From Loxodes magnus (lineage: Eukaryota > Ciliophora > Karyorelictea > Loxodida > Loxodidae): a DNA stretch of 64,000 nucleotides. Every line of letters begins with the position of its first letter. Positions within the stretch are counted from its first letter, which is position 1. Location: the NCBI GenBank assembly GCA_946699065.1, contig CAMPDV010000132.1:639592-703591 (forward strand). Direction: 5' to 3'. Of the stretch, positions 741-64,000 are shown one piece after another. A model generated the notes under the pieces. The model saw nothing but the letters and a program-made list of their open reading frames with translations, ran no database searches and was not told the origin of the DNA. The translations under genes and the position numbers were made by a program.

Positions 741-3050
741 ATATCCTAAACATTTTTTGAAACATAAGCATGTTTAAACTGCTGATTTCTGTATGAGGTA
801 GCAATTCCTTTGTAATAAAAAAATTTTATCTATCTTTGTTATTATAATTAAGAGGACTAAAGTTAAATAATTTCTTTTAGACTTAAATATTTTATTAAAT
901 TAAACATTAAATAAATAAAAAATAGTCAAAATTATATTTAAATTATTAATAAAAGTAAATTTGAATTTAAAGTTAATAAAAAAAGAAATTAAAAATTTTA
1001 ATATTTTAATATTTGAAATTAATCATAAAGATATATTAAATATGCCGATTACAAAATCATAAAAGTAAAAATAGTTTTTAAAGTTTAATTGTCTAAAAAT
1101 AAATTTTTATTTTAAAATGACAAAACAACGCACATCTAAATTAAAAAATTACAATAAAAAATCTATTTAAAAATAATTAAAATTTAATATAAATAATTAT
1201 GATATTTATTTATTTTCAATTACTAAAAATAATAAAATGCTATATTTGTAGAAATATTTTAATTTATTAAAAAACTATGTTGTACAGCTTTTTAAAATTT
1301 AAATATAATATACTTTTAGAATTTAATTAATTGTAAAAATTCTTTAATATTAAACTAATATTTGATAGGAATTAATATAAATTATCTATAAAATATTATT
1401 TTAACATATTAAAAATACAGAAGCTGTATTTTATTTTTTCTTTATTTAAAGAAACATTTTTAATATTTGAATATAAAATATAATCAAAATATTCATTTTA
1501 TTAATTATAAATATTTTTAAAATTATTAAAATGGCTAAAACTTTTACTTTAGAGGTTATTTATTATTTCAAACTATAAGAACAAATATCCTTGCTTAATA
1601 TAAAAAATAAAATTTTATTTTCTCTAAAATAAATTTAACTTTCATATGGTTTATTTTTCTATTCTAAGTATTTAATTTTATAATTATAATTATTATGCTC
1701 AAACTAATTAATTATAAATACAATTTAATATATATCTTAAATATTTGTTACTATAAATAAAATTTTTATTTCATATACCAGTTTAATTTTAACTACTCTT
1801 TACTATGAAGAGATATTTCTCTTACTCATTTAAAATAAAATAATTTCTTATTTTTAATAAGCAAATCTTCTTGATGTATTGTAGATAATTAAAAATTTTC
1901 AATTTTCAAAGATAAAATTATTTTAATATTTGATAGTTTCAAAAATTTACTATGATATAACGAAAGAAATTAAAATGATAACTAGAGTTAAGATATAATT
2001 AATGTAACATTTATAAAACCTAATTACAATTTTAATTAGTTAAAGAAGTTAAAATGTATTTACTTTTAATTAATTAGCAAATCTAATAAACTTCTATCTA
2101 ATTTAGTGCTTTAAAAACTGAAAATATATTATATTGATGCTAATACTACAACTAGTAATTCTAAACAAGTGAATTGAATATATTAATAATTAGCTAATTA
2201 AGTATTTAAATATTATATATATTAATGATAAACTAAATTAATTTAAAATTATATTCTTAAACTTTAAATTTCTTTAATGCAAATAATCTAAAGCTTTTAT
2301 AAATTATAACTTATTAATATAAAAATTTAAATGCAAGTGAAGATACTATGCTAACGCTGCTTATATCCATTTAACTTAACAAGGGCAGTAAAATAAAATA
2401 ACTTATTAATAATAAATAATTAGCTAATAGTTAAAATTTAAAGGCATTGATTGTTTAATATAGAAATAGAATAAATTAAAGAAGTTAAAATAAATGTCTA
2501 AATTCTAAAATTTAGTAGAAGTACTAATTTCCTTTTGAAATAAAACTTTAGAAATTAGTACCAGATAAAAGAGGCTAAATATATATTCATTTAGAGGAGT
2601 AAATAAAAAAAAGTTATAAATTATATATGAAAATATAATAAATAGAATGATACATAAAACTAGTATTATTTCAATCTTCTTGAAGTTCTTTGTTTTCCAT
2701 TAGTGTTACTATAACCTCTTATTATGGTAGGAGGAATAAAAAATTGAATTAAAATAGAATATTCCAGAAAATATACAAAATAAAGAATGAATAATGATAA
2801 TAAATAGAATTAAAACATAATTCTTATAATTTATCAGGATTTAAAACTCGAGATATATTTGCTTATTCTTTTATTCTAGATTTATCAAACCTTTTATTGT
2901 TGAGAATAGATGTAAGAAATTTGAACTACAAGAATATAAGAATAGTATGAAGAGAGAAGACTAAATATTTAAGTATTTTTATGATTAAAAAGTATTTAAA
3001 AATAGCAATTTAGATATAATAAATAGATAATAAATGTTAATTACATATTA
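741..3050. other. A+T-rich DNA without recognisable gene
   Basis: Very A+T-rich, with long A and T runs and no conserved motif, RNA gene or repeat shared with the rest of the window that I can see. The short G+C-richer patch near 2,340-2,390 is not repeated elsewhere here. Confidence 0.5.
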
Positions 3051-5809: not shown

Positions 5810-8095
5810 GGCTATATATTATACTATTTACTATTATGATCTGTTTCATTTATATATATGAGATATGGTAATAAATAGCGTATTTAGTATATGATTTGAT
5901 TGGTTTTAGTTACTAATAAAGACTAATTTAGATAACTTAAAGGATTTAAATATTATGCATTTTATTAATAATTTATAATATATTTACTAAGTTATCAGCT
6001 TATAGTTTTAAACTTTATTTTAACTTTTGTAAATTTTCCTTATTAGCTAGTATTTCTTCAATACTATCATTATAATGGATTTATAGAATTAATTATTATA
6101 TTTAATTGATTAGTTATAGAATTCAAGTCACTTTTCTTTACTCAAAAGTATTTTCTCAATAACTTATAAAGTAAGAGTTAATCAAATAGGCTAATATAGC
6201 TAAATATTTTCTTAAGTTTAAAGAAATTATTTATGTTCTTACCTTTTAATTAGATATTAAATAGTAAGATAATTACAGTTTAATGGTGAAAACATATCTG
6301 TTTGCTATTCAAATTACCTTTATTTATTTAGTCCATTAAAATGTTTAATTTTTCAATCCATTATCTCCTGTTTGTTATCTTATGTTAGTATACAATATTT
6401 TCTTTATCTCATTAAACTTATTTTTGATACTTTTTTAATTCATTTCTTAAACGTTTTCTTTCTTCTTTTTAAGTATCAGCAACATATCCACAAGTTAATT
6501 TAACTTCTTATTTTTGCTATATCATTATCTAGCTTAACCAGCTTCAAAGAATATGTAGCTCATTGTGAAGCTTTTCCAATATTTTTCCAATTTTCAGTTT
6601 TTAGTAATATAACCTTCTTACTTATGATCTATATCTGCTATTTTAACAATTAATAGATATCATCTAGTATTCTTTCCTAAACAATTCTTATGCTAATTAT
6701 GCTATTAGTCCCTTAAAAAATAGTCTTAAACTTTCTTTTGTAGTAATCTAGGTTGGATCTTATGCTGAATTATTGCATTATAGTTTTAATTAATTCTAAT
6801 AGCTACTATCCTACTGGATTTAGTTTATTTGCTACAAATTATGTATATGTGCATTAAATCTCATACTATACTTATAAACTTAAATTGCTTTTAATTAGGC
6901 TTTCATAGAAACCGATTCATTATTCCTCAAGTAGGCGCATATACATTAAGTAAGATTCATACAAATTACAACCCTTCCAGTATTTCATTTTATTCCATTT
7001 ACTTCATACTCTCTCCATATCAATTCTTCTTTAATATATAAAGCCACTCCTTTACTAAGTCTAGTTCCTTCTTGAGTCACCATAATATATCTTTTTCAAG
7101 CATTAATTTACATAACTCTTCTTTGCTCGACCTCTTATATTATCAGTTCTTATGTTTAATTAATTTAAAATATTCAATTTTCTTGATCTTCATTGTTTGA
7201 TTCTTTCTATTTAGTATCATCAATTTAGCTTAGTCTTTTTCAAAACCAAAATACTCTAATGTTTGTATTTATGTTCAGGTTTTATGTATGCTATCTTTTC
7301 TGATATTATTTCTTGTTTATTATTAAAAATAATTGCATCAGTTATGGAAGTTAGTTAGTTACTTATTGAAGCTTATTTTTTCAAAAGGTTCTGACAATTC
7401 CATTTTTCTCTCATGGTGTTAAGTTTTGGCTTTTCCATATATCTAAGTAGCAGAAATCATTTTATCTCAGCATTTATTCAGTTAAATAATTTTTTATATA
7501 TCTTCAATTGTTGCCTATCTCGCATATAATTATTTAAGCAATTTTATACTTTAGGATCCAAATTTTTGCATGCTACTCTTCTTTGTAATTTCTTTAGTTT
7601 TTCTATTTTTATTTATATATCTTTTATTTTAGTGTGTTATTTCTTGTTACATATTTACCACTTTTTTGATATTCCAATATAACTGATTATTAGCTTGATT
7701 TATTTTTTATCTTCTATATTACTTAGTACTGTGTCTAATTTCTTACAGTTTACATATCATCATATTGCTAATTGATTTAACTTTACACGTAAATTTTTTT
7801 CTTCCAGTCAAGTAGGAATATTTTCTGGATAAGTGGTTCGAATATTTCTAGGTACATAGTTGTTCATCCATTAAGTCCTATTGTTCCTTTTGTTGTAAGC
7901 AAAACTGTTTTTTTTATATTTCCAAAGGCTTTTAGCTATTTTTATGTTTGAGCTAAGCAGTTATCTAAACCTAAAGAATATTTTATTAGTTCGTCATATT
8001 TTCCTTGCTTTTTTTCTCCATTCTAAAAACTTGATTTGGATGTTACTGAGTAGTTCTTAGTGGTTTATCATATTAATCTCGAAAATTTATTATAT
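5810..8095 (-). pseudogene. LINE-type ORF with AP-endonuclease domain, copy 1 (A1)
   Basis: Minus-strand ORF reading as a long basic N-terminal region followed by an APE-type endonuclease as in non-LTR retrotransposons. Recognisable pieces are LNIRTDNIRG near 7160 (the TxNxRG motif), a QE within VTQEGTRLSKGVALYI near 7080-7030, LIWREYEVNG near 7010, and FNAHIHNLQQIN near 6850-6800. The last is where GDFNAH is expected; Gly-Asp is lost and one T appears deleted. Frameshifts are present, so the enzyme is dead. No reverse transcriptase follows before the repeat ends at about 5810. The copy at 29455-31795 is nearly identical over its length; the copy at 23400-25205 is shorter and more diverged. 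Several TGA codons lie at plausible Trp positions. Confidence 0.55.
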
Positions 8096-8096
8096 A

Positions 8097-8833
8097 GAAA
8101 AATGGTCTCACCTATCTAGCAAAGCTCAAAATGATTACTTAATCGATCTGGAATTTCTCTTAAGTGAGAACCAAAAGCTATAATATTCGTTTCAAGAGCG
8201 ACAGAGAAATATAATAGTCCTATAGGAAAGCATCACTGGAATTCACATCAATAGTAATTAGATCAAATAGCACTTAACCTTATTCATTCGACTGAACAAA
8301 TTAATTAGAGAATTTAAGCGACGAAAGCAAAATTAGAGTTTTTCCGATAATATAATCAACAAATTTGTGAAATGGATTTCTTAGATCATGTAAAATCAAG
8401 GAAACGATCGGATGGACATAGAAGCAAAAGACCCATAGTAATTTATTATCAGGAAAAGAAAAATGCTGATACTGTAAAAAAATGGGACACAAGATAAGAG
8501 ACTGTTGGTAGTTATTAAAAAAACAAGAATATAAAAGTCAAAAATAATGGTATAATTTAAACAAGTTGTGATGCACGCAAGATGGCAGAATATTCAGAAA
8601 AAATGATTGTAAATCACTTAGAATGCTCCTAAATTCAAGCGGCTGAAGTAATTTCAACAAAAGTTGGTTAGGATTCGACACAGAAGAGATACTGAGAAAG
8701 AAAAGATGTAGATTGTCAAGAGATATGATAACGAAGATCGGAACAAATTTAAAGTAGAAGGTGAATTTATTAAGCTTAACAAAAAATTTGATTTGTGACA
8801 AAATAATAATGTTGAAGTTAAGATAATCTATTA
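8097..8833 (+). pseudogene. gag-type ORF (G3) nested in composite copy 1
   Basis: Plus-strand, opposite to its host. One frame without shifts runs from about 8101 to 8830 when TAA/TAG are Gln and TGA is Trp. It contains a zinc knuckle at 8464-8505 (C-W-Y-C-KKMG-H-KIRD-C, the W written TGA) followed by QDGRIFRKN, the same post-knuckle motif as in the copy at 4845-5677. No start Met is obvious, so this is probably a 5'-truncated element. A homologous copy at 31796-32566 occupies the same place in composite copy 3 but has an extra A beside the knuckle that shifts its frame. The middle composite (copy 2) lacks the insertion, which gives the empty site. Confidence 0.55.
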
Positions 8834-8848
8834 TATTATCTTATCTTA
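8834..8848. repeat. target-site duplication, left, of gag element G4
   Basis: TATTATCTTATCTTA, repeated perfectly at 9794-9808. The 15 bp length is typical of target-primed reverse transcription. Confidence 0.8.
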
Positions 8849-9793
8849 ATAATAATATTAATTTTAAGTTTTCCGTTTTAGGGATTTCCAACCCCGTCAG
8901 GAAGACAGCAGTTCATGCTCTCTGCTGTTAAATATAAAAGTTCGGGTCGCCCAATTTTAGCGAGATTGGGAACTCGGATTTTTCCAGGTTTTCCCTCCTT
9001 TAACTTGCCTTGATTCCATCTTAATCTTGTATATTGAACCATCCAGATTGCAATACATTCTTTTCATTCTTGCTTCTTCTTTTTTCTTCTTTTGTTGTTC
9101 TTTTATCCAATAATTTCTTTATTTCTATTAGAATTTCTAACACTTCCGATAAAAATGTCATACGCTTCCACAGCAGAAACATTTCTTTTTTATTTTTAAT
9201 TATTTTTCTTGATTTGTTTGCTCTTTCTAGGCTTCGATTTCCATTTGTATAGCTCCAGTTTCGCTTTACTCTTTCTTAAAAGTTTACAACTTCTCTTCTA
9301 CTTTTCCAAGTCCGTTTCTAAAGTTTATTTTAGGATTCGTTAGTCTGACTTTGTGAGATATTCCAAAAGGCGTTAAGATCTCTTTCCTAGGACATAAGTC
9401 TTGACTCAATTCCTTCTGCTAGGCCTATCTTTGCCATCAGCATATCATTGTCCTTCTTCAATCTCTTGACTTCTTCCTGGAGGTTCAGTACCACTTTGAT
9501 GAGCTACTCCATGCTCATCTGGCCAGAGGGGTTGAACTCTGATACCTCCTGATGGAGAACAGACTTCATCTGTTTCCTCGATTTCTCGCTTGAGGTTGGA
9601 GTTTCCGTGTGTATATTCTTCAAGGTTGGCTTTCGTTCGTTTTGTTAAATTCCAAGTTGTTAGTTCAGTGTTGGTTAAGGTTGTGATAAAGAAGATTGCT
9701 AAGATTATTAAGACTTGGTTTCTTGCTTCCTCCCTTCCTTTTTGGCTTAGGAAGAGGTGGTATAGAAGCCTGACTTGAAATCTTCAACCATTT
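8849..9793 (-). mobile_element. gag-only retroelement G4 with 15 bp target duplication
   Basis: A 945 bp insert flanked by perfect 15 bp repeats. Its 5' end lies two bases before the ATG at 9791, so there is almost no 5' leader, and its 3' end is an AT-trinucleotide-rich tail. The ORF starts MVEDFKSGFYTTSS, has a Gln/Ser/Pro-rich stretch, then NPSGQMSMEQLIKVVLNLQ and a Leu/Lys/Glu coiled coil near 9480. After a frame change it has a zinc knuckle at about 9136-9177 (C-FC-C-GSV-W-H-FYRK-C, with TGA at the W) and a basic end containing RTFIFN. It aligns with 12970-13890. No polymerase is encoded, so it must have been mobilised in trans by a LINE. The frame change between coil and knuckle suggests it is inactive. 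Confidence 0.7.
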
Positions 9794-10332: not shown

Positions 10333-11727
10333 TCAGTTATGACTTCTAATACTTCTATAGCTCAACTTTTCTAAATCAATCCTCATTATTGAAACTCTTT
10401 TCTATTCTATAGCAAAAACATATCCATAGTTATTTCTTATTTTCATCTACGTTAAAGCTACAACATCTTTAAAAATTTAACTTTATTGCCATTATTCTTT
10501 GTTTCTTTTATATATTCTTCTTGAATATTATTTCGTAGACGAATTTTTCATACCTCCACATATGACAAGAGGCTCTAAAGAAACTATAGGATAAGCAATA
10601 GCTTCAGGAAGACTCAAATTTTACTTACTCCATCTATCATTCTATATGTTATACTTTCAAATATCTTTTAAAGTTTATCCTTTCTAATTTCCACCTCCAA
10701 AAGAATAAATATTTTATTCATCTTTATCTACTACTAAAGTTTAATCCCCTATTTAGAATGGAAATTAAGAGCAGTTTTATCATTTACTTTAGTTTCTTAT
10801 CTTTAACTTTTCTACTGATTATAAAGCTTGATTATTATCAGTTAATCCTCCAACCACATAAAGATATTTTTAAGCAGCTGCTATTCCAAAGCCACATCTT
10901 CCCTCATTTAGACCACTAAGTTTTATATTATTACCTTCATAATCGAACTACCAAGTTTCTTTTATTCCTTTCTTTTAATTTTTGTTATATCCTCCAATTA
11001 AATATAACATATTTTAATATTCTATACTTTTACTATTGTCTGGAATAATAGTTTAAACTTAGACTTATCGTAATTACTCTGTTTAAATATTAAATAAACT
11101 TAATTTTTAAATTCCTCAATTAAAAAAGTGAATATAGTTAGATTATATAAAGTGGTAGCTTAGTTTATGTTAATTAGTCTAAATCTTATTTGGTTACTTA
11201 GTATTGTATTATAGTTTTTATCTTATTAGATTGTAAGTTAATTTAGAGTTTAGTATTGTAGGTGGTTATGAGTTATATTAGAGTATAGTTGGTTTTAGTG
11301 ATTAGTAGAATTAGATAATATTTGAGTGTTATTTTTGGTAGATAAATGTTGGTTAATGATTGATGATGATATTAGTTAGTGGTATTATGAGAGTATTACT
11401 AATGTTTGATTATTTGGTTGTAATGGTTTTAGATTTTTCCATAATTTACCTCCTTATCTCTTTTAATTTCTATCTAGCATCTTAAATCTTTTATATGTAT
11501 TATTAGTTTTAAAATATCACTCTTATTAAATCACTTTCTTAAGGTAAATCATCAAATCTAAAATGGAATCCTTTTTAACAAATAGGACATTACATTATGC
11601 CTTATAATCAGTACTGAGTATTCAAACACAAACCACAGTAAATATGTCCACAAGGTAAGACAGTTGGAAGAGCATTAGTTAAGTTGTAATCTTCTAAGCA
11701 GATTAAGCATTTTGGTAACGCTTGCAT
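10333..11727 (-). CDS. RING-finger / kelch-repeat protein, copy 1
   Basis: A 465-codon frame without a shift, from ATG at 11727 to TGA at 10333-10335, which is followed by TAA. Residues 7-50 form a C3HC4 RING (C7, C10, C26, H28, C31, C34, C47, C50), the fold that recruits ubiquitin-conjugating enzyme. Residues ~80-200 are an Asn/Gln/Thr-rich linker. From ~230 kelch-like beta-propeller repeats follow (YLIGGYN, YLYVVGGLTDNN, IYSFGGGN), usually a substrate-binding module. RING plus kelch suggests an E3 ubiquitin ligase with a propeller adaptor; the target is unknown. Four internal TGA codons (40, 204, 316, 357) lie where Trp is expected or possible; codon 259 is TGG here but TGA in the other two copies. 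All three copies have exactly 1,395 nt. It lies upstream of a LINE-type ORF on the same strand, as a first ORF would. Confidence 0.75.
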
Positions 11728-20714: not shown

Positions 20715-21029
20715 ATAATTGAAAAGATGGTGGGAGCTGAGAATGACCTTCGTGACAACACTTTCTGGTTTTATGGCTAGGAACAAGTTTCTTTCCTGTC
20801 ACTGAGAAAGTCCCTGGTCAGAGTCATTTTCTGAAGGGAACACTGTCTTTGAGATTATCCGCTCTTGGTAGGGGCTTGAAGCCTAGCTGTTCATAGCGAT
20901 GGAGCTCCCTAGCAGCTGTGCCTGGAGCACAACAGGATATCCCCGTTATTCCATAAAAAAGAGAGCGTCGGGTCGTGCAATCGGAAAGGAGTTTCCGGTC
21001 CAAAAAATTTTTTAGTTGAAATTAATTAA
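20715..21029 (+). mobile_element. SINE-like G+C-rich element S, copy 1
   Basis: A 315 bp insert of strikingly balanced base composition in very A+T-rich DNA, flanked by perfect 15 bp target duplications. It begins ATAATTGAAAAGATGG and ends AAAAAATTTTTTAGTTGAAA then ATTAATTAA. It contains a 6 bp hairpin CGGAAA-GGAG-TTTCCG near its 3' end and other stem-forming blocks, but no conserved ORF. The only other copy here is at 23928-24239, inverted and nearly identical. The structure suggests reverse transcription of a structured small RNA by LINE machinery. A weak A-box-like TGGCTAGGAAC is present; no B box was found, so tRNA ancestry is not supported. Confidence 0.75.
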
Positions 21030-21044
21030 TTAATAGGTATAGTT
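21030..21044. repeat. target-site duplication, right, of S1
   Basis: TTAATAGGTATAGTT, matching 20700-20714. Confidence 0.85.
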
Positions 21045-23912: not shown

Positions 23913-23927
23913 TCATTCAAATTATTA
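23913..23927. repeat. target-site duplication, left, of S2
   Basis: TCATTCAAATTATTA, repeated exactly at 24240-24254. Confidence 0.85.
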
Positions 23928-24239
23928 ATTAATTTCAACTAAAAAAGTTTTTGGACCGGAAACTCCTTTCCGATTGCACGACCCGACGCTCTCTTTTTTA
24001 TGGAATAACGGGGATATCCTGTTGTGCTCCAGGCACAGCTGCTAGGGAGCTCCATCGCTATGAACAGCTAGGCTTCAAGCCCCTACCAAGAGCGGATAAT
24101 CTCAAAGACAGTGTTCCCTTCAGAAAATGACTCTGACCAGGGACTTTCTCAGTGACAGGAAAGAAACTTGTTCCTAGCCATAAAACCAGAAAGTGTTGTC
24201 ACGAAGGTCATTCTCAGTTCCCACCATCTTTTCAATTAT
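23928..24239 (-). mobile_element. SINE-like G+C-rich element S, copy 2 (inverted)
   Basis: Reverse complement of 20715-21029 with only a few differences (for example GGGAACTGAG for GGGAGCTGAG near its start). It has its own, different 15 bp target duplication, so it inserted independently; the two copies are not the ends of one transposon. Near identity between copies implies recent activity. Confidence 0.75.
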
Positions 24240-25750: not shown

Positions 25751-27145
25751 TCAGTTATGAATTATAATACTTCTATAACTCAATTTTTCTAAATCAATCC
25801 TCATTATTGAAACTCTTTGCTATTCTAAAGCAAAAACATATCCATAGTTATTTCTTATTTTCATCTTCGTTAAATCTTCAACATTTTTAAAAATTTAGCT
25901 ATGTTGTCATTATTCTTTGCTTCTTTTATATATTCTTCTTGAATATTCTTTCGTAAGTCCATTTTTAATGCCTCCAAATATAATAAAAGGCTCTAAACAA
26001 ACTATAGGTCCAGAAACAGCTTCAGGAAGATTTAAATTTTACTTACTCCATCTATCATTCTATATATTATATTTTCATATATCTTTTAAAGCTTATCCTT
26101 TCTAATTAAACCCTCCAAAAGAATGAATATTTTATTCATCTTTATCTACTACTAAAGTTTAGCCTGCTATTTAAAATGGAAACTAAGTACAGTTTTATCA
26201 TTTACTTTAGTTTCCTATCTTTAACTTTTCTACTGATTATAAAGCTTGATTATTATTAGTTAATCCTCCAACCACATAAAGTTATTTTTAAGCAGCTGCT
26301 ATTCCAAAGTAACCTCTTCCCTCATTTAGATCACTAAGTTTTATACTATTACCTTCATAATCAAATTATCAAGTTTCTTTTATTCCTTTCTTTTAATTTA
26401 AGTTATATCCTCCAATTAAATATAACTTATTTTCATATTCTATACTCTTATTGCCTAAAGGAATTATAATTTAAACTTAGACTTATCATATTTGCTCTGT
26501 TTAAATATTAAATAAGCTTAATTTTTAAATCCATCAATCAAAGAAGTGAATATAGTTAGATTATATAAAGTGTTAACTTAGTTTATGTTAACTAGTCTAA
26601 ATCTTATTTGGTTACTTAGTATTGTATTATAGTTTTTATCTTATTAGATTGTAAGTTAATTTAGAGTTTAGTATTGTAGGTGGTTATGAGTTATATTAGA
26701 GTATAGTTGGTTTTAGTGATTAGTAGAATTAGATAATATTTGAGTGTTATTTTTGGTAGATAAATGTTGGTTAATGATTGATGATGATATTAGTTAGTGG
26801 TATTATGAGAGTATTACTAATGTTTGATTATTTGGTTGTAATGGTTTTAGATTTTTCCATAATTTACCTCCTTATCTCTTTTAATTTCTATCTAGCATCT
26901 TAAATCTTTTATATGTATTATTAGTTTTAAAATATCACTCTTATTAAATCACTTTCTTAAGGTAAATCATCAAATCTAAAATGGAATCCTTTTTAACAAA
27001 TAGGACATTACATTATGCCTTATAATCAGTACTGAGTATTCAAACACAAACCACAGTAAATATGTCCACAAGGTAAGACAGTTGGAAGAGCATTAGTTAA
27101 GTTGTAATCTTTAAAGCAGATTAAGCATTTTGGTAACGCTTGCAT
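25751..27145 (-). CDS. RING-finger / kelch-repeat protein, copy 2
   Basis: Same length (1,395 nt) and layout as the copy at 10333-11727: C3HC4 RING at residues 7-50, Asn/Gln/Thr-rich linker, kelch-like repeats, end at TGA then TAA. Internal TGA at codons 40, 204, 259, 316 and 357. Codon 259 (26369-26371) is TGA here and TGG in copy 1. The RING and linker half differs from copy 1 at only a few bases, including silent sites, while the kelch half differs at many. In the second kelch region GRCGFG of copy 1 is GRGYFG here. Absence of any frameshift against visible substitution argues for past or present coding constraint. Function as for copy 1: probable E3 ubiquitin ligase with kelch adaptor, substrate unknown. 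Confidence 0.75.
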
Positions 27146-29454: not shown

Positions 29455-31795
29455 CATATTATAGTATTTACTATTATATTCTGTTTGAATAATGGTAATA
29501 AATAGCGTATTTAGTATATGATTTGATTGGTTTTAGTTACTAATAAAGACTAATTTAGATAACTTAAAGGATTTAAATATTATGCATTTTATTAATAATT
29601 TATAATATATTTACTAAGTTATCAGCTTATAGTTTTAAACTTTATTTTAACTTTTGTAAATTTTCCTTATTAGCTAGTATTTCTTCAATACTATCATTAT
29701 AATGGATTTATAGAATTAATTATTATATTTAATTGATTAGTTATAGAATTCAAGTCACTTTTCTTTACTCAAAAGTATTTTCTCAATAACTTATAAAGTA
29801 AGAGTTAATCAAATAGGCTAATATAGCTAAATATTTTCTTAAGTTTAAAGAAATTATTTATGTTCTTACCTTTTAATTAGATATTAAATAGTAAGATAAT
29901 TACAGTTTAATGGTGAAAACATATCTGTTTGCTATTCAAATTACCTTTATTTATTTAGTCCATTAAAATGTTTAATTTTTCAATCCATTATCTCCTGTTT
30001 GTTATCTTATGTTAGTATACAATATTTTCTTTATCTCATTAAACTTATTTTTGATACTTTTTTAATTCATTTCTTAAACGTTTTCTTTCTTCTTTTTAAG
30101 TATCAGCAACATATCCACAAGTTAATTTAACTTCTTATTTTTGCTATATCATTATCTAGCTTAACCAGCTTCAAAGAATATGTAGCTCATTGTGAAGCTT
30201 TTCCAATATTTTTCCAATTTTCAGTTTTTAGTAATATAACCTTCTTACTTATGATCTATATCTGCTATTTTAACAATTAATAGATATCATCTAGTATTCT
30301 TTCCTAAACAATTCTTATGCTAATTATGCTATTAGTCCCTTAAAAAATAGTCTTAAACTTTCTTTTGTAGTAATCTAGGTTGGATCTTATGCTGAATTAT
30401 TGCATTATAGTTTTAATTAATTCTAATAGCTACTATCCTACTGGATTTAGTTTATTTGCTACAAATTATGTATATGTGCATTAAATCTCATACTATACTT
30501 ATAAACTTAAATTGCTTTAAATTAGGCTTTCATAGAAACCGATTCATTATTCCTCAAGTAGGCGCATATACATTAAGTAAGATTCATACAAATTACAACC
30601 CTTCCAGTATTTCATTTTATTCCATTTACTTCATACTCTCTCCATATCAATTCTTCTTTAATATATAAAGCCACTCCTTTACTAAGTCTAGTTCCTCCAC
30701 ATTATTCCTTTATTTAAACCATATCTTTAATTCAATCTATAAACACTTCTTGAGTCACCATAATATATCTTTTTCAACCATTCATTTACATAACTCTTCT
30801 TTGTTCCACTTTATTCCTCTTATATTATCAGTTCTTATGTTTAATTAATTTAAAATATCCACATTTTCTTGATCTTCATTGCTTGATTTTTTCTATTTAG
30901 TAACATCAATTTAGCTTAGTCTTTTCAAAACCAAATTACTCTAATTTTTGTATTTATTTTCAGGTTTTATGTATATTATCTTTTCTGATATTATTTCTTG
31001 TTTATTATTAAAAGTAATTGCATCTATTAGTTATGGAAGTTAGTTGCTTATTGAAGCTTATTTTTTCAAAAGTCCAATTCCATTTTTTCTCTCATGGTGT
31101 TAAACTTTGCCTTTTCCATATATCTAAATAGCAGAAATCATTTTATCTCAGCATTTATTCAGTTAAATGATCTTTTATTATTCTATCAATTGTTGCCTAT
31201 CTCGCGTATAATTTAAATAATTATTTAAGCAATTTTATATTTTAGGATCCAAATTTTTGCATGCTACTCTTCTTTATAATTTCTTTAACATTTCTTTAGT
31301 TTTTCTATTTTTATTTATATATCTCAGTGTGTTATTTCTTGTTACATATTTACCACTTTTTTTGATATTCCAATATAACTGATTATTAGCTTGATTTATT
31401 TTTATCTTCTATATTACTTAGTACTGTGTCTAATTTTTTGACAGTTTACATATCATCATATTGCTAATTGATTTAACTTTACACATAAATTTTTTTCTTC
31501 CAGTCAAGTAGGAATATTTTCTGGATAAGTGGTTCAAATATTTCTGGGTACATAATAGTTCTACCATCAAATCATGTTATTCCATTTATTGTAAAAAAAC
31601 TGTTTTTTTATATTTTCGAAGGTTTTTAACTACTTTTCTGTTTGAGCTAAGCAGTTATCTAAACCTAAAGAGTATTTTATTAGTTCATCGAATTTTCCTT
31701 GCTTTTTTCTCCATCCTCAAAACTTGATTTGGATGTTTCTGAGTAGTTCTTACTGGTTTATCATATTAATCTCGAAAATTTATTATATAAAAAAA
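29455..31795 (-). pseudogene. LINE-type ORF with AP-endonuclease domain, copy 3 (A3)
   Basis: Near-identical to 5810-8095, with the same degenerate GDFN site and the same left boundary but a few extra indels (for example around 30690-30760, where copy 1 lacks about 70 bp). No reverse transcriptase follows. Dead copy. Confidence 0.55.
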
Positions 31796-33969: not shown

Positions 33970-35364
33970 TCAGGAATGACTTCTAATACTTCTATAACTC
34001 AATTTTTCTAAATCAATCCTCATTATTGAAACTCTTGGCTATTCTATAGCAAAAACATATCCATAGTTGTTTCTTATTTTCATCTCCGTTAAAGCTTCAA
34101 CATCTTTAAAAATTTATCTTTATTGCCATTATTCTTTGCTTCTTTTATATATTCTTCTTGAATATTCTTTACTAGAATGATTTTTTATACCTCCAAATAT
34201 GACAAGAGGCTCTAAACAAACTATAGGTCCAGCAACAGCTTCAGGAAGACTCTAATTTTACTTACTCCATCTATCATTCTATATGTTATATTATCATATA
34301 TCTTTTAAAGTTTATGCTTTCTAATTTCAACCTCCAAAAGAATAAATATTTTATTCATCTTTATCTACTACTAAAGTTTAAAAAGATATTCTAAATGGAA
34401 ATTAAGAACAGTTTTATCATTTACTTTAATTTTCTATCTTTAACTTTTCTATTGATTATAAAACTTGATAATTATCACTTAATCCTCCAATCACATAAAG
34501 ATAATTTTAAGCAGCTGCTATTCCAAAGTAACTTCTTCCCTCATTTAGATCACTAAGTTTTATACTGTTACCTTCATAATCGAATTATCAAGTTTCTTTT
34601 ATTGCTTTATTTAAATTTCTGTTATATCCTCCAATTAAATATAACTTATTTTAATATTCTATACTTTTACTATTGTCTGGAATAATAGTTTAAACTTAGA
34701 CTTATCGTAATTACTCTGTTTAAATATTAAATAAACTTAATTTTTAAATTTCGCAATCAAAATAGTGAATATAGTTAGATTATATAAAGTGGTAGCTTAG
34801 TTTATGTTAATTAGTCTAAATCTGATTTGGTTACTTAGTATTGTATTATAGTTTTTATCTTATTAGATTGTAAGTTAATTTAGAGTTTAGTATTGTAGGT
34901 GGTTATGAGTTATATTAGAGTATAGTTGGTTTTAGTGATTAGTAGAATTAGATAATATTTGAGTGTTATTTTTGGTAGATAAATGTTGGTTAATGATTGA
35001 TGATGATATTAGTTAGTGGTATTATGAGAGTATTACTAATGTTTGATTATTTGGTTGTAATGGTTTTAGATTTTTCCATAATTTACCTCCTTATCTCTTT
35101 TAATTTCTATCTAGCATCTTAAATCTTTTATATGTATTATTAGTTTTAAAATATCACTCTTATTAAATCACTTTCTTAAGGTAAATCATCAAATCTAAAA
35201 TGGAATCCTTTTTAACAAATAGGACATTACATTATGCCTTATAATCAGTACTGAGTATTCAAACACAAACCACAGTAAATATGTCCACAAGGTAAGACAG
35301 TTGGAAGAGCATTAGTTAAGTTGTAATCTTCTAAGCAGATTAAGCATTTTGGTAACGCTTACAT
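33970..35364 (-). CDS. RING-finger / kelch-repeat protein, copy 3
   Basis: Again 1,395 nt with no shift, ATG at 35364 (second codon TAA where copy 1 has CAA, both Gln) to TGA at 33970-33972 followed by TAA. RING and linker are almost identical to the other copies; the kelch half differs at many sites. Internal TGA at codons 40, 259, 316 and 357; codon 204 is TGC here and TGA in the other two copies. Codon 259 (34588-34590) is TGA. The CAA/TAA and TGG/TGA interchanges at aligned positions support the reading of TAA as Gln and TGA as Trp. Function as for copy 1. Confidence 0.75.
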
Positions 35365-44754: not shown

Positions 44755-47700
44755 TCATTACTCCTCCTTGTCCAAATTTCTATTTTCATTTATTCGGTCT
44801 TCACATTTCTTTTCATCTAAAAATTCAATTTCTTATTAAGATTTCTCTAATGTCTAATCAGATTGTTAAAAATTCCATAATTCATTCTATTATTCGGATT
44901 CTTCAAGAGTTTCAGCAATTGCTTATAAGTTAATAGATTTTTTGATAGATATTTTTTGAATCTTATGCTTATTTTAATCTGCTTATTTCTCAACTTTTTT
45001 GTTATAATTTCTCATCTTTTATCTACTGCTTATTTTTGATTCTAATTTAATCTAAGACTGTATCTACTAAAAAAATGGAATATCATTTGATTAATAGGAT
45101 TATTATGTCTGATTTGAATAGTTTTAGGTTTAAATTTCTTCTTGATGACTATTTTAATTAGTAATAGTATTACTTGGATTATTTTAAATTTAGCTTGATA
45201 TTTATAAGAATCACTTAATTCTTTAATTTCAATATTCTGTTTGCGTTAATATGAAGTTTCTAGAGTTTTAGTTATAGAGTTCATATAAGCCAATGCTGAT
45301 TAAATATGATAAGTCCATTTATTTTAAGATAGTTATATCTTCTTTCTACTTAAAATGAAGGGTTAGTTTTTTGGTATGCTTATTTTCTTAGTTTAGGTTA
45401 TAAAATTAAACTTCTTCTTTATCATTGAAGATCTTTATCCTTTTTCTTCTTAATATTGAGGAAATCTTATTTTAGCATTTCCTTCATTTACTCTATTAGT
45501 CTCTAAGATAATTTCCTTCTTACTTTTCCCATTAATTAATAGTTTCCATTAAATCTAACTTTTATTAAAAGCAGATAAAGCAAAAGCATGTTTTGAGATA
45601 TTTTCTATAGTATTGACTTCCAAAGAGAAGTATAAAGTAGTATATCCAGACAAGAATGAAGTATACATTAGCAGCAACTAGTAGTATAAAAGAAGCGATA
45701 TCAATAATTAAGTATCTTTATCCAGAATCAAAATAGATACCTATATATAGTGTAAATGCTGATACATATAAGTAAATAGCTTCTAGTTTATTAAGCTCTT
45801 CTTTTATATAAGCATTATTTTACCTCTACAGATAAATAAACACCAGCAGTACAAGAATTAAGCATCAGAACTAGAAAATTATAGTATTCTTCTATAGAAA
45901 AATAAAAATAAAGGAAATTTAAAATTTCTAGTAAATTTTGAATATTTCTCAGTAGTAGAAATTCTCTTTGTACCCTATTGTTAGAAACCCAAACTAAGAC
46001 TTTATTTAGTAGGATTTTATTATTTTTCTCTTCCTATATAAGTAAATAAAAACGTTAAAAGGAACAAAAAACGCATACAGAAGTAGTGAAGGTAAACCAA
46101 ATATTAAGACAAACTTTATATGCCTTCCCTTTCAACATTATATATCAGTATAAGAGTTTAGAACGTAATAGTCATCTTCTATCTTATAGCAACTAAAAAC
46201 ACTAAAAATAGTAGAGGTTAAATTAGTACAAATTTGGAAGTAGGAAACACTCATTATAGTTATAAAGATAGAATTATTAAACTTTTTATATTTTATGCAA
46301 GAGTATACACTCACTAATACAAGGGATATTACTAAAATTATTAAAGGTAACATCAAAATGCTCAATACTTTGCTATAATAAAACTCTTCTCCTTCTTAAA
46401 ATAAACAATCTATTTTCAATATATTAGAAGTCTATGCCGTTATTCTTTAATTTGCTTCAAAGTAGCTTTTAAGTACATTTGATCAATTGAACTAAAACTT
46501 CTAAATTAAAGAAGAAAATTAGAAATAGTTAGTTAATACTTTTAAATAGACCCCATAGTAAGACTCTTACTTTTCTGCTGATTTAAGAGTTTGAACAACT
46601 AAGTATATAACGAAAATGATGAATATTGTTATAGTAAAAGTACCAAGTAAGATAGATCATCTTTTACTTAAACATTTTTGACACTCATTTATATCATTTT
46701 TTGTTCAATCTTTCTCGCAAACGTCACACATAACACCTTTATAACCTTCAGCACATTCTCCTTTTCAATTAATTCCTTTCTTGAGATCTTCTCTATTTTA
46801 CTAATCGGTGGTTTATAAATAAATATCCACAAAACTATCATTTAGAGTAGTTCCTTTACATGCTTTGCTATTAGGACATTCATGAATATTATCTGTTTCA
46901 AAACTTTTTCTTCAAAATCCTTTTTTAGGTCCAATCAAATCACTTCCATAACATGTCGAACCAGCAATACACTCTTTGCATTTCAGATTGCTTTAGTTAA
47001 AGGAATATTATCCATAAAGACAATTATAGCATGAATTACCCTCTATAAGTATTTATCCTTATAAGCATTTCTAAATGTATACTTCCATATTAAATTTATT
47101 GATAAACTTTAAGTTAAAAGGTAAAGTATCAATATCAATGGCATTGGTTTCTATATATAAACTAATATTAGTTTTTGGTTCTGCCTTTATTATTATATCC
47201 TTGAAATCAAACACACCAAGTTCAGCTTATACTTTAGTTTTTCCTGATAACTCTGAATCACTGTTATTGGAATTAATAGATGCTTAAGAGATGTTATCAG
47301 TTCTAACTAGCTAACCTTAAATATCTATTATATAAAATAAATGCTCAGTTATAGGAAAACCAGGTAACTATGAATCTAGTTATCTTTATATTTTGGTGTT
47401 TGCACAATGATCTAATGCATCTATCGTATTAGTATTACTAAGAGTATATGCAAATGAAGCAAAATGATTTCCATAGAAAGCTTAATTATTTTTGAAATAG
47501 AGGCAAATTTCTTAACTTTCTATATCAGGAATGAAAGTAGGTATAGTTCCTTAAAATGAAATAGCTCCTCCTTCACTATTGGTACTTTAAATAGAGTTAT
47601 TAATAAAGAAATTCCTTTCTATTCTATAGTCACAAATTAATTTATTATCACATATCAATCTTAAAGCTCCTCCTTTTAGAGTAGATTACTCTCCTCTTTC

Positions 47701-50700
47701 AATTTTATTGCTTACAAAGTTATTATATAAAAAGGTGATATTAGCATTATAGCAGTATCCTACACCTCCTTATTATAAAGCTGTAACATTCTCAAAATGA
47801 TTATATTAGATTAAATATTTATAAAATACTTCATCATTTACTATTGCAAAGCAAGAACCTATTTAGGATATCTAATTATCACAAGTACAATTAAACATAT
47901 CCAATTATGAGTTTTATGAATAAACAGCTGAACCAGGAAAATTTTTGCTTTGTCCATTTCTAAATGTTGTAAGAGTTAAAGTTAATGCACTATTTTATTA
48001 AATAGCTATTGCTGTACTATAATAGTTAGTCAAAGTACATTATTTCATTGTCATATTTGACTATATCATAAAAACAACTGAGCCTCCTTATTATTAAGAT
48101 ATTATATTGCTAAAAATAGAATTTTAGATACTTAAGTTGGATTACTAAGCATAAATAGTACCATCATTTAAATTGACTATTATATTACTGAAACTGGTAT
48201 TATTTATTACAGCTTCTGATTGAAACACATATAAAGCTCCTCCTTTCTTTCCTTTTTCATTTCGAAACTTAGAATTTAAAATTTATATTTTAGATTAATA
48301 TTCACTATATATAAAAACTCCTTTTTGTGACTCTTGATCATTAAAAATAGAATCACTTATGTAAATTTCAGAGTTATGAATGAAAATTCCAGGTGTTAAG
48401 TCATCTGCAGAGTTGCTGGCAAATGATATTTGGCTAATGCTTAAGAGACTCTAGTACACATAAATAGAAGCTTTCCCTTTATTTTTATATATAGATGCTT
48501 TAGTAATTTAGCATTCACCATTTGAATTCCAAAGATTAATAATTCCTGTTTTATATGCTTAATTTTCATGAATTGATATGTTGTCTAATTAAAATATACC
48601 ATTTTAAGCGAATATAAAAGATCCTTCATCCGCCAAGCATTCGGTAACTTCTGAGTTTGTAAGAATTAATTTGCTTTACATATCAAGAAAAATAACACCA
48701 CCTTTGAGTTTTGCTCAATTATCATAAAAATTGATTAAATCCATCTCAACTCTTGATATAAACATGTAGATAACTGCTCCTTCTAATGCTGAATTATTAT
48801 AAAATTATGAGTTTATAAATGTTACGTTTGATTATTCACAATAGGAAAATCCACCAAAAGCAGCAAAATTATTATAACCTGTTATATTGTAAATTTGTGC
48901 ATCTACTTAGAGAAATTAGAAGGTTCCTCCTTAAAAAGATAGATTTTCTTCAAATAAACTATTATAAATTTAAATTTTATCTTTATTGGCGTCTATCACT
49001 CCTCCTTAGCTTTCAACTACATTCTTTTTAAATTAACAATTTATAATTTAATAGTCTGTAGTGTAAGATTGTATTGAACCCCCTTTCTATCCTTTATTTC
49101 CTTAAAATTAAGAATTTTTTATAATTGCTTTAGTGAATTTTATGTCAATCATTGCTCCACTTGCAGCTTCATTTTCAGAAATGAAACAATTAGTTAAGTT
49201 AAACCGATTGCCTGATATTTCCATTAAATCTCCCTTTATAATATAATTTTATTCCATTTTACTTTCAGAAATATCTAAATTAGAGTTTTTAACTTCTATT
49301 ATTCTATACTAAAGTTAATTCTACTTAAATAAACTATCTCTTATGATCATAGTTTCTACTTGCTAAGCTTAAATTAATGTATTTACTTAGTTACTTTGAA
49401 ATTAGCACTTTTCTAACTGAATAAATTGTACATTTTCTATTTCTAAGAGGTTAGAGTCTGTATCTGTGTTGTTATAGAACTAACTTGATTGAATGTATAC
49501 AGGTGAAGCTTGCTATAGGTATAAGATTATTCCTTACTTAGCCTTATTCTAATAAGCCTTTAAATTTTTAATAATTAAATCTCCATTTTATAGGTAAATA
49601 CATCTTCCTTGTTCATATGCTTCGTTGCTTCCCATTTCTGCCTTATCGAAAGTAACTTAAGAACTAAGGCTAAAAATAACAGCTCCTTTAGATGCATTGT
49701 TACCATAAGCTTGTAGATTAATAAATATTATTTTAGACTGATCAAAGTAAAAATTTCCATTGAATTTAACTTTGTTAAGTATTGCTTAAATATCTTATAA
49801 AACAACTGTCTGTTTTCAAAAGTTTCCAATACTTCCTATAGAAGCTTAGTTAGAAACAAATTAGCAGTTTATAATATAAAATAGATTTTACTTTTTATCT
49901 GTGAATATATCAATCACACCACCTTAAGTATTAGTTTAGTTTTCTTAGAATAAACTATTTCTTATGGTGGCTACAAATGAGTTACTTAGATACATGAATC
50001 CTCCGCTTTAAAATATAGCTTCATTTCCTATACCTTAAACATTTTCCATCAAGGTTATATTCGAATCTACTAAATACAAGGCACCTCCTCTGTTGCATTT
50101 GTTTTATATAAAAGAACAATTTTAAATTAGCTAAGCGTTTGATTTATATAATCAAATAGACCCTCCTTGATAAGTTGAGTTATTCTAAAGAAATTAATTG
50201 TCTATAAAGCTTTAAATGGATTAGAAGTTTATAGAAAAACTGCCTCCATTGTTTGCCTTGTTTTAGCTAAATAAATTATTTTAGATGATTGTAGCTTATT
50301 TATTATCCTCTAAATAAAATGCTCCTCCATCATAGTTAGCTGTATTTTAAACGAAAGTGCTATTTTCTATTAGATAAATATTTGATGCTGATGAAAAATG
50401 AAACCCTCCAAATCTTTCAGCTATATTTCTAAAAGCTTTTATCAAATTTATTTCAGTTAAGTTTGAATGAAAAGATGCTAGAGAGCCTCCATATTAAGCT
50501 TTGCTTTCTACAAAAGAAGAGTTGTATATGAGACTAATACTTGAATTTTCAAAATAGATTACTCCTCCGTAATCTGTTGAAGTATTGTTTTTAAATACCG
50601 AATTAGAGATACTATTTATCTTTGTCGCGTTTAAAAATATGCAACCCCCAAAATCGTTTGCAGAGTTGTTTCTGAAAATACTGAAGTCTATGTTTCTGAT

Positions 50701-52169
50701 ACTAGAGTTAAGAGTTAAATAAATGACTCCTCCACTCTTTTTAGCGATATTATTAGCGAAACTAATATTTCTTAATTAATCAATATTTGATTAGTTTCCA
50801 AACAAAAAGCTTCCCATCTTATCTAGAGCTGTATTTTCCTCAGCAATTATATTTTCAATCGATGTTATATTAGTCAAGTAAATATAGAAAGACCCACCAC
50901 TACTAGCTCTATTTTTCTTGAATAAAGAATCTTTAATTAGTAAAATATTAGATTGGACTGTATAGAAAACAGCTCCAAATATCGATGCATTATTTTAGTA
51001 GAATGTACTGTTTACTATTAACTCTATGCTTGAATATGAGGCACTAATACATCCACCGTTTTAAGTAGCTTAATTAGAATAAAAGAAGCTATTTTAAATT
51101 ACTTTAATCAAAGATTGCTGCATTCAAATAATTCCTTCAGTTCCTTTGTTGTTCTCAAATTTGCATTCTTGAATACTTAAGTTTGAGTAAATTAAATAAA
51201 AGGCTCTAACTAAAGATGAATCTCCATTAGAAAGGAATTGACTTTTAATGAGATACTAATTAGACTTATATGACTAAAAGATTCCTGTAGTTTAGGCTGA
51301 ATTTTACTAAAATAGGGAATTTTCTATAACTAAAGTTGACTCTGTATGCATTATTAGTGTTTTAATGGCTGTATTTTTTTTAAAGTAGTCTTGTTTATAT
51401 TTAACTAGCTATTATAGGAGTAAATCACTTATCCTTAATTAGCTAAGATACTACTGTTTTAAATAGAAAGTATGGAACTATTTAGATAAAATAGCTGATT
51501 TCAGAAAGGAATTTTCATATTTTCTACCTGTGAGTTTTGCAGAAGAAAGCTACTTGAATAGAAATAAAATCAGGAACCTTAGCTCTATTAAGAGTCTTTA
51601 ATAGTGGAATTTATAATAACTAACTGAGATTTGGTAGCATTAAGGAAAGAAGTTTATTAGTTCTAACTAGATTGGAGTTAGTCATAATCTATTTTGTATT
51701 ATTGAATCTTAATTGTTAAGTCTACCATAGCTAAGTAGTCCTTTACTAGTAGCAAAGTACTATTTTTAAAGATGATGATAGTGGCATTTGGTAGTTTATT
51801 ATAGCACATTTCTATGTGACTTTCATTGTCTTAGCATTTCTTAAATTACTAGATTGTTATTTATTTCCCTTATTATTACTAAGCTAATCCTCTCATTATT
51901 TCACATTTATCTATACAATTCTTACATTTCAAGCAGTCTAAGCTATGCTCGTGTGGTGATATGTATATTGTATGAGGCTCTCCTTCTTCTAAAGCATAAA
52001 TAGTCTCTGAAATGGAAATAAAAGGGAAATTTATAGTTCCATTAGAATCTTAAATACTAAGTGAGGTAAAAAGCGCAGGAGATGTTACATAGATTTACTT
52101 AGCTAAAGTTCTGGTAATAGAGAATAAATTGAAGGCAATAAATAGAAAAGTTAAGGGATTAACTTCCAT
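44755..52169 (-). CDS. large beta-helix / Cys-rich multi-pass membrane protein
   Basis: ATG at 52169 opens a signal peptide (MEVNPLTFLFIAFNLFS), then a CxxCxxC-type patch (CLKCKNCIDKC). About 1,500 residues of short repeats follow (NNxA...GGxIY, NSxF), a right-handed beta-helix resembling polymorphic-outer-membrane-protein repeats. Next is a Cys-rich part (about 47060-46650: CYNCLYGQYS, KCKECIAG, GF-[TGA]-RKS, GVMCDVCEKD), several membrane segments (46660-45540), and a Gln/Glu/Lys-rich tail ending TAA-TGA-TAG. Similar large surface proteins are common in ciliates; role unknown, possibly adhesion or sensing. Internal TGA codons lie where the family has Trp, e.g. 46912, 46765, 46705, 46132, 45949. 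One defect: at an A8 run (51369-51376) one base is missing and the frame shifts. A partial inverted paralogue begins at 62403. Confidence 0.7.
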
Positions 52170-62000: not shown

Positions 62001-62310
62001 AAATCTCTTTATGTAGATCTATTCTCCAAGGATCTATCATCATTTATAAATGTATAAGTTCATATCCTATAAGCATGTTGTAAGCTGTAGCTTGACACTT
62101 AGGAATTGTCATTGGATTGGATCATTTAACCTTCTTGCTAAATAATAAAATAACTAGCTGTATATTAATTTAATAACTTACATAAGCATATTTAATAAAA
62201 TCAACTACACTCTATTATAACTTACTTTATACAACCTACTTTCCCTTTATTTTATTAATGATCTAGATCTATTAAATCTTCTATTTAGATAAGTAACTAA
62301 AACTTATTAA

Positions 62311-62402
62311 AATGTTTGATATATTAGTTGATTAAAGTTAGTTTTAGTTAAGCTATTAATTTAATAGCTCTATTTAGTTATTATTTTATTCTTAACTGTA
62401 TA
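62311..62402 (+). promoter_or_regulatory. upstream region identical to that of the 52169 gene
   Basis: Perfect reverse-complement match to 52170-52262 and the outer limit of the inverted duplication. Higher identity than the coding part suggests constraint or recent gene conversion. Confidence 0.45.
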
Positions 62403-64000
62403 ATGGAAGTTAATCCCTTAACTTTTCTATTTATTCTTATTGCCTTAAATTTATTCTCTATTACCAAAACTTTAGCTAAGTAAATCTATGTAACGTCTCC
62501 TGCGCTTTTTAGTTCACTTAGTATTTAAGATTCTAATGGAACTATAAATTTCCCTTTTACTTCCATTTCAGAGACTATTTATGCTTTAGAAGAAGGAGAG
62601 CCTCATACAATATACATATCACCACACGAGCATAGTTTAGACTGCTTGAAATGTAAGAATTGTATAGATAAATGTGAAATAATGAGAGGATTAGCTTAGT
62701 AATAATAAGGGAAATAAATAACAATCTAGTAATTTAAGAAATGCTAAGACAATGAAAGTCACATAGAAATGTGCTATAATAAACTACCAAATGCCACTAT
62801 TAGCATCTTTAGAAATAGTACTTTGCTACTAGTAAAGGACTACTTAGCTATGGTAGACTTAACAATTAGGAATTCAATAATAAACTGGTAGCACCTAAAT
62901 TTAGCCTTTGTAAGTAGCTTTTATTAATGCTATTAAAGCTTAATTAGCCATAATAAACTCCAGTATTAGAGACTCACAATAAAGCTAAATTACCTGAATG
63001 TATTTTTATAAAAGTAGCTTTCTTCTGCAAAACTCATTGATAGAAAACTTTGAAGTTCCTTTAAGGAGCTAAATGATACTTCTTAATAACTCCATACTGT
63101 CTATATAAAATAGCAGCTTAAAGTATAATAGAGAATAAATAATTTAATCTTATCAAAGCCAATTAATTATGAGCAAGTCTATTTTCTAAATGAATACAGC
63201 CTCTTTAAATATAATGTAGCACTAAGAGTCAACTCTTATTATAGAAGACTCCTTAATTGAATAAAATTCAGCCTTAATTGCTGGCTTTTCATACTTCGTT
63301 AATTCAAATCTGAATCTCATCACAAGCAAAGTAATTTTAAATGGAGATAAATCTATAAGCGGGGTCCTTTATTTAAGTTAGTCAAATTTGAGTATTATAG
63401 CGTGCAAATTTGAAGACAACAAAGGAGATTCTGGAGGTATTTATTTGTAGCAATCTTAAATTAAAGCTATATAGAATAGTAGCTTTTATTCTAATTAAGC
63501 TAATATATACGGAGGATGTATTTATGCCTCATATTCAAACATAGAGATAATAGTAAACAGTATATTTTAGTAAAATAGTGCATTCACATCTGGAGGTGTT
63601 GTCTATGCAGTCCATTCTAAAATTTTACAAATTGACGAATGCATATTTAGAAACAATAAAGCTGGTAGTGGTGGATCCTTCTATATTGACTTGACTAATA
63701 TAACATTAATGGATAATCTTAGAGCTGAGGAAAATATAGCACTGAACTAGAATGGAAGCTTTTTGTTTGGAAGTTAGTCAAATATTGATTAATTTAGTAA
63801 TTGTAATTTTGCTAATAATATCGCTAAAGAGAACGGAGGAGTTATTTACTTAAAGTTTAGCTCTAGTATTAGAAACTTCAACCAAAATTTTTTTCAGAAA
63901 CAACTCAGCAAGCAATTTTGGAGGCTGCATATTTTTAAATGCAACAAAGATAATAAGTATCTCTAATTCGCTATTTAAAAACAATACTTCAACAGATTAC
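62403..64000 (+). pseudogene. partial inverted paralogue of the beta-helix membrane protein gene
   Basis: ATG at 62403 opens the same signal peptide (MEVNPLTFLFILIALNLFS) and CxxC patch as the gene at 52169. The beta-helix repeats follow (SGGVVYAVHS, GSGGSFYIDLTN, ENGGVIYLKF) to the window end. A TGA at 62995-62997 aligns with the TGA at 51570-51572 of the other copy, so this codon is conserved between paralogues. Two shifts are visible: an extra T near 62920 and another in the T7 run near 63890. It therefore looks like a decaying duplicate, unless these are sequence errors in homopolymers. The C-terminal part lies outside the window. Confidence 0.6.

Follow-up and report, generated by a model that had tools for sequence, protein, structure and literature searches.

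The 64,000-nucleotide stretch of Loxodes magnus DNA analysed here (the window) is the terminal part of a 703,591-base contig and carries three copies of a RING-kelch gene. TGA codons lie inside the reading frame of every copy, and every copy also ends in TGA. The locus raises the question of how TGA is read in this organism, and with it the question of what a gene family of this kind may do. The gene at 10333-11727 sits on the minus strand, and the copies, the parts of copy 1 and a further kelch-like stretch are located as follows.

10333..11727, minus strand: RING-kelch copy 1, 464 codons from the ATG at 11725-11727 to the terminal TGA at 10333-10335, with internal TGA at codons 40, 204, 316 and 357
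25751..27145, minus strand: RING-kelch copy 2, internal TGA at codons 40, 204, 220, 259, 316, 357 and 413
33970..35364, minus strand: RING-kelch copy 3, internal TGA at codons 40, 259, 316, 346 and 357
11188..11727, minus strand: codons 1-180 of copy 1, the constant part, made up of RING, predicted helix and linker, with hardly any difference among copies, silent sites included
10336..11187, minus strand: kelch repeats of copy 1 (codons 181-464), the variable part, in which about 20 codons are hypervariable
11608..11610, minus strand: codon 40, TGA, in the RING
10951..10953, minus strand: codon 259, TGG in copy 1 and TGA in copies 2 and 3
10780..10782, minus strand: codon 316, TGA, aligned with a Trp of PDB kelch chains
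10657..10659, minus strand: codon 357, TGA
10333..10335, minus strand: terminal TGA of copy 1, 52 codons past the last coding-TGA column (413)
2525..2804, plus strand: short stretch resembling kelch codons 321-416 at about 70% identity, which may be a degenerate relative

The three copies, spaced 15.4 and 8.2 kb apart, each run from ATG to the terminal TGA over 1,395 nt without indels, which confirms the absence of frameshifts described in an earlier, sequence-only reading of the window. That reading had also assigned four to five internal TGAs to each copy at the same positions. Codons 40, 316 and 357 are indeed TGA in all three, but the counts are 4, 7 and 5. Codon 259 differs between copy 1 and the other two exactly as had been described, and codon 413 is TGG, TGA and TGG in copies 1, 2 and 3. 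Codon 204 is TGA in copies 1 and 2 and TGC in copy 3, its column not being Trp throughout; codon 220 is TGA in copy 2 and CGA in copies 1 and 3, and codon 346 is TGA in copy 3, GGA in copy 1 and TTT in copy 2. Pfam searches on the table-27 translation returned RING, with a best E of 1.7e-9, and kelch, with a best E of 1.6e-18. Codon 40 had been taken for the residue preceding the CPxC motif; it actually lies seven residues N-terminal of the first Cys of that motif. Codons 316 and 357 had both been matched to kelch Trp positions, and in the comparison with designed PDB kelch chains this held for codon 316 but not for codon 357, which falls at a Val.

The three window copies were aligned with 40 fetched copies, drawn from the 91 best-scoring matches of a protein search, to give 43 copies. 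Six columns carry TGG and/or TGA exclusively. TGA is present in 43 of 43 copies at codons 40 and 316; the TGA/TGG counts are 27/16 at codon 259, 41/2 at codon 357, 4/39 at codon 366 and 21/22 at codon 413. Site counts were made on 42 copies, leaving out L040, in which 9 nt are inserted in frame close to the end. In these, TGA accounts for all 84 cells of the two pure columns and for 91 of the 168 in the four mixed ones. At non-Trp columns in which the predominant codon lies a single step from TGA, it occupies 5 of 4,620 cells (TAA 1/1890, TTA 0/924, GGA 4/630, AGA 0/546, TCA 0/294, TGT and TGC 0/336). The sole CGA column has TGA in 3 of 42 cells, which brings the total for one-step columns to 8 of 4,662. 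All remaining columns hold TGA in 27 of 14,574 cells, 22 of them at codon 204 and five at codons 230, 231 and 346. Codon 204 encodes Trp, Tyr, Cys, Gln or Pro depending on the copy, and TGA is also seen at variable columns without a Trp codon in other copies, namely 204, 220, 230, 231, 254, 311, 325 and 346. Because TGA otherwise keeps to Trp columns, an origin of these codons by nonsense mutation is disfavoured.

Tubulin genes were used as a housekeeping comparison. A tubulin family search of the genome scored 150 matches among 258 candidates, and 12 loci were read, eight alpha-tubulin genes of one array and four beta-tubulin loci. In the eight alpha-tubulin genes each of the three Trp codons is TGG and the terminator is TGA. 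Beta-tubulin L072 has TGG at W21, TGA at W101, W344 and W397, and a terminal TGA. Locus L073 has TGA at 101, 344 and 397 like L072, L074 has TGG at all four Trp codons, and L075 has TGA at 101 and loses its frame downstream, its later TGAs being uninformative. Positions 101, 344 and 397 are all Trp in PDB beta-tubulin. Over 430 codons L072 and its paralogue L074 differ with pS 0.729 and pN 0.036 (pN/pS 0.049). L072 is under purifying selection, and therefore a constrained gene uses TGA for Trp. The check proposed in the sequence-only reading, a search for TGA at invariant Trp residues of a housekeeping protein, yields three such sites in this one gene. Tubulin genes are themselves multiplied, on contigs C64, C441, C629, C1299 and others, with nine matches on C441 at an exact spacing of 3,342 bp. 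Many tubulin matches contain one to three TGAs, the positions of which were read in the four beta-tubulin loci.

These data bear on two other readings of the internal TGAs. The RING-kelch copies could be pseudogenes in a code where TAA and TAG mean Gln and TGA means only stop, the internal TGAs being nonsense mutations, mostly TGG to TGA, in an AT-rich genome. The TGAs that occur in individual copies at columns lacking Trp codons (220, 254, 346 and others) and the frameshift in 2 of the 14 full copies from the window and array stretches would fit such decay. However, the other 12 keep the 1,395 nt in frame, TGA is almost missing from the numerous other codons one step away, beta-tubulin with a pN/pS of 0.049 carries three TGAs, and the published account of the Loxodes magnus code has TGA as Trp and stop; we consider this reading largely refuted and very improbable. 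Chance and pseudogene origins of the TGAs were both rejected on the column counts together with beta-tubulin. More improbable still is that TGA is decoded by occasional readthrough or as selenocysteine rather than as ordinary Trp. The Cys codons at codon 204 in 4 of 42 copies would suit selenocysteine, but at codons 259, 357, 366 and 413 the partner codon of TGA is TGG and not Cys, the beta-tubulin columns hold Trp in solved structures, and within the window, which also has no tRNA, no RNA family reached the Rfam threshold.

The release factor and tRNA genes were also searched for. An eRF1_1 family search gave three matches, L069, L070 and L071. The latter two, which we take to be eRF1 from their NIKS motif, are close paralogues about 35 kb apart on contig C196; L069 presumably corresponds to a Dom34/pelota-like protein. 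The RF00005 tRNA search scored 63 of 42,786 candidates and gave matches of equal score, apparently from one repeated tRNA, which on contigs C78, C103 and C158 stand in tandem at spacings of 527, 1,752 and 1,753 bp. A single heterologous query, yeast tRNA-Trp, had no match in the genome. A search for tRNA-Trp(UCA) would not decide the code, because Condylostoma is described as reading UGA as Trp although tRNA-Trp(UCA) was not detected there by Swart et al. (PMC4967479).

A second gene in the window and its paralogue also contain internal TGAs.

44755..52169, minus strand: large gene with a right-handed beta-helix region (PF13229, E 1.1e-26 in 46681-51228)
62134..64000, plus strand: inverted paralogue of the 44755-52169 gene, truncated by the contig end, with one shared TGA

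The interval 44755-52169 is 7,415 nt long, which is not a multiple of 3, and it is not one frame. The first 800 nt or so read in frame 0, and the rest, up to the terminal TGA, in frame 2. The single change of frame near the 5' end, near nt 740-905, is probably a short intron or a frameshift, and candidate GT-AG introns of 17, 20 and 23 nt are present at this point. The frame-2 part comprises 2,171 codons with 15 internal TGA against 4 TGG. All four contexts in which TGA had been reported, GF-x-RKS, CEKD-x, IQC-x-KGRH and YY-x-EIF, are present. One TGA had been described as conserved in the paralogue, and that at nt 598 is shared; three other TGA columns in the aligned stretch are not.

Collectively, these results show, with near certainty, that in this ciliate TAA and TAG encode Gln, and TGA is read as Trp within genes and as stop where they end. 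The sequence-only reading had proposed such a code for the organism, and the six TGG/TGA-only RING-kelch columns and beta-tubulin L072 bear it out. Its view that TAA and TAG stand for Gln and that CAA and TAA interchange is likewise upheld, since CAR and TAR codons are mixed in columns that hold Gln-type codons only (6 of 464 RING-kelch columns in 42 copies), and the tubulin frames contain internal TAA and TAG. TGA terminates 9 of 9 tubulin loci with an end in frame (eight alpha and L072, from the 12 loci read) and stands at codon 465 in 42 of 43 RING-kelch copies and nine nt later in the 43rd. The last coding TGA lies 52 codons before the stop in the RING-kelch genes, 152 in the 44755-52169 gene and 47 in beta-tubulin L072, and in all three genes looked at coding TGA is depleted from about the last 20 codons. 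The code itself is nothing new, being already known for Loxodes. According to the published account, Loxodes uses NCBI table 27 (TAA and TAG as Gln, TGA as Trp or stop), with UGA read as Trp when it is distant enough from the poly-A tail and serving as the sole stop (PMC11441545); the karyorelict code with TGA as both Trp and stop, to which the sequence-only reading had pointed, is the one described for Loxodes magnus. Our data share with table 27 the Gln reading of TAA and TAG, internal TGA as Trp, terminal TGA as stop and the lack of coding TGA near the stop, and in the features compared, all of them taken from DNA sequence, no difference from the published Loxodes code was found. Under the model published for such codes, an internal TGA would be translated by default and release would take place only close to the mRNA end. 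The macronuclear assembly is given as 706 Mbp in the same account (PMC11441545), and the assembly that holds the window has 705,730,643 bases in 7,843 contigs.

The RING-kelch gene belongs to a large family. Two genome lists combined give no fewer than 121 separate places, many of them in tandem, spread over 48 contigs. This is a lower bound, because only the best candidates were scored and the second copy in the window is missing from both lists. Among the places listed, contig C132 has 24, C90 has 11 and C392 has 9, and many further contigs have one each. Listed close neighbours lie about 6.9-8.3 kb apart; the listed copies share one orientation per contig on C132, C90 and C392 and are mixed on C294 and C1124. 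A 30-kb stretch of C132 consists of near-identical tandem units of 6,910 bp, and no RING-kelch copy was found in two 10-kb stretches of that contig (1-10000 and 100001-110000). Over the first 528 nt, 17 of 40 listed places, among them that of the window copy itself, match this copy with the score of an identical sequence; the remaining 23 score five bits less. Fourteen full copies were obtained from the window and from stretches chosen around listed places. Twelve of them stay in frame up to the TGA stop, three of these sharing all 20 hypervariable sites (one recent triplication), and two, in L053 and L054, do not. Ungapped flanks had suggested a mobile cassette, an idea dropped because gapped comparison shows related flanks and the 6,910-bp tandem units. 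A Pfam scan of ten window stretches named no second gene in the array unit, its matches being confined to the gene at 46681-51228 (beta-helix and a weak PMP repeat).

Other features of the window include a direct repeat of 3.1 kb at 91.5% identity (5816-8849 and 29456-32572), which overlaps the array unit and had no Pfam match in the stretches scanned there. An inverted repeat of 316 nt at 99% identity (20715-21030 and 23924-24239, 2.9 kb apart) may represent the ends of a mobile element. The segment 36418-37173 on the plus strand has coding-like composition, two in-frame TGAs and no Pfam match. Coding-potential segmentation divided the window into six segments only.

In the literature searched, the family is undescribed: no account of a hypervariable RING-kelch family in ciliates or elsewhere was found, and the words kelch, ubiquitin and 'gene famil' are absent from the main text of PMC11441545.

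Variation among the copies is concentrated in one half of the gene. In 42 copies, diversity at fourfold sites amounts to 0.000 over the 44 such codons of 1-180 and to 0.057 over the 23 of 181-464. About 20 codons, picked by eye from per-codon entropies, are hypervariable (204, 205, 230, 231, 249, 278, 279, 295, 301, 327, 328, 346, 350, 378, 379, 393, 396, 423, 442 and 443). At these 20 codons pN is 0.497 and pS 0.318, and at the other kelch codons pN is 0.044 and pS 0.106; amino-acid change at the hypervariable codons is thus about 4.7 times the silent rate of the surrounding codons, an excess that rests on pairwise counts rather than a likelihood model. By codon position, variation is 0.35 at the third against 0.52 at the first and 0.50 at the second. 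The hypervariable codons recur in each kelch blade, after GG and at R-x-x-FG. Against designed PDB kelch chains, codons 278 and 279 fall at the S-G of R-S-G and codon 295 at the residue following GG, positions that we take to be ligand contacts in KEAP1. The 16 most variable of the 284 codons all lie inside two loop windows, where 4.4 would be expected; extending the ranking to 20, 30 and 40 codons puts 19, 24 and 28 of them inside. The loop windows were drawn after the sites were known, and a sliding control peaks at zero shift. Codons 267, 311 and 325 are variable although outside these windows (entropy 1.67 at 267 and 1.59 at 311). Structure models are poor, with mean pLDDT 40.5 for the whole protein and 45.1 for the kelch part. 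In the former, 12 sites in 278-400 are predicted in, or within two residues of, loops between strand pairs and none in the short turns inside strand pairs, a placement that, at such a pLDDT, is only a hint. Together, these results give the anatomy of the family with high confidence: it numbers no fewer than 121 copies, this gene included, of which many are arranged in tandem; the RING half is constant, and kelch variation is focused on two sets of propeller loops.

The variable sites also combine almost freely. All 42 variable-half protein sequences are distinct, and the 20 sites form 41 distinct haplotypes among the 42 copies, which differ on average at 14.7 of 20. Over 39 biallelic sites, r2 is 0.131 below 50 nt and 0.042 beyond, compared to 0.024 in shuffles, so that sites of the hypervariable half more than 50 nt apart are nearly independent. 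Copies on the same contig differ about as much as copies on different contigs (0.0807 vs 0.0843, a difference reached in 241 of 2,000 label shuffles), and certain neighbours are near-identical, one pair at 0.015 as well as the 6,910-bp units. Such a pattern would be expected if arrays often exchange short tracts, or if change recurs at the same sites.

What such a family does can be proposed from its sequence. On balance, we lean towards a reading in which each copy would be a RING E3 ubiquitin ligase with a shared catalytic end and its own binding face, and the family a repertoire tagging many different proteins. Selection would keep the copies different at the binding face, short exchanges would reshuffle the faces, and the 5' half would be homogenised. 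The targets could be of foreign origin, such as parasites, endosymbionts or retrotransposon products, or they could be self proteins used in mating or kin recognition. A bolder version, which we put forward only tentatively, is that the family might constitute an immune-receptor-like genomic repertoire in a single-celled eukaryote, with at least 121 and probably hundreds of RING-kelch ligases, diversified by exchange tracts of tens of nt, that would mark foreign or non-self proteins for destruction. If true, this would be a possible protein-level defence in a ciliate published as not removing retrotransposons by DNA elimination. The account as a whole, which joins the code, the family anatomy and the E3 repertoire, seems likely to us.

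Two other explanations of the variable half were weighed against an E3 repertoire under selection. The family may be real and its variable kelch codons merely relaxed surface loops of redundant copies, with no selection for recognition. Propeller loops are normally among the least constrained parts, two of 14 copies are broken, and silent change is raised too at the hypervariable codons (0.318), all of which such relaxation would accommodate. Relaxation alone, however, should not exceed the silent rate, and pN at the 20 codons (0.497) lies well above pS at neighbouring kelch codons (0.106); turns on the opposite side of the blades, codons 267 and 311 excepted, are also less variable, with strands taken from the poor model. 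We regard this explanation as unlikely. A directed process of mutation or conversion, comparable to diversity-generating retroelements or cassette-exchange antigen genes, could instead diversify the kelch half, with the 5' half as a fixed anchor. It would be in keeping with the border between the constant 5' and variable 3' halves, with the near linkage equilibrium beyond 50 nt and with the lower variation at third codon positions, and the raised silent change at variable codons would be compatible with a mutation process acting locally. However, tandem copies that undergo ordinary gene conversion and are under selection would look no different, and a directed process is in our judgement improbable to the same degree as relaxed loops.

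The selected E3 repertoire that we prefer has counterparts in known systems, and by analogy the family most likely works like fish TRIM families and nematode F-box/MATH adaptors. The fish finTRIM and class IV TRIM families are described as having hypervariable, positively selected sites in ligand-binding loops (PMC3137616). As in that description, the ciliate proteins combine a RING end with a variable C-terminal recognition domain whose putative ligand-binding loops are hypervariable, and the fish families number tens of copies. In contrast to finTRIM, the recognition domain here is a kelch propeller instead of B30.2, the RING halves are nearly identical and at least 121 copies occupy one protist genome; the comparison sets against finTRIM a family known from sequence alone. 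Membership of the TRIM family itself was rejected, as neither B-box nor B30.2 appears among the 23 Pfam families listed up to E 1, and kelch does. The F-box and MATH adaptors of C. elegans are reported as expanded, with positively selected substrate-binding sites and a link to pathogen response (PMC5392922). The RING-kelch family resembles them, as there described, in being a greatly expanded ubiquitin-ligase-related family with change focused on presumed substrate-binding sites; unlike these cullin-ligase adaptors, it has RING and kelch in a single chain. With KEAP1 and other BTB-kelch proteins it shares the kelch repeats, and its variable positions match the ligand-binding loops of KEAP1, in a register taken from designed kelch chains; here, in contrast, RING replaces BTB-BACK and the binding face is hypervariable. 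The arrays also suggest that repeat annotation of such genomes may hide working gene arrays, and the family lets one ask directly what different binding faces hold and whether the repertoire shifts within a clone. Animals are known to have large families of ubiquitin ligases whose binding sites are under selection; this ciliate family, with its many copies, near-constant RING half and nearly freely combining sites, would stand as an independent and especially clean instance.
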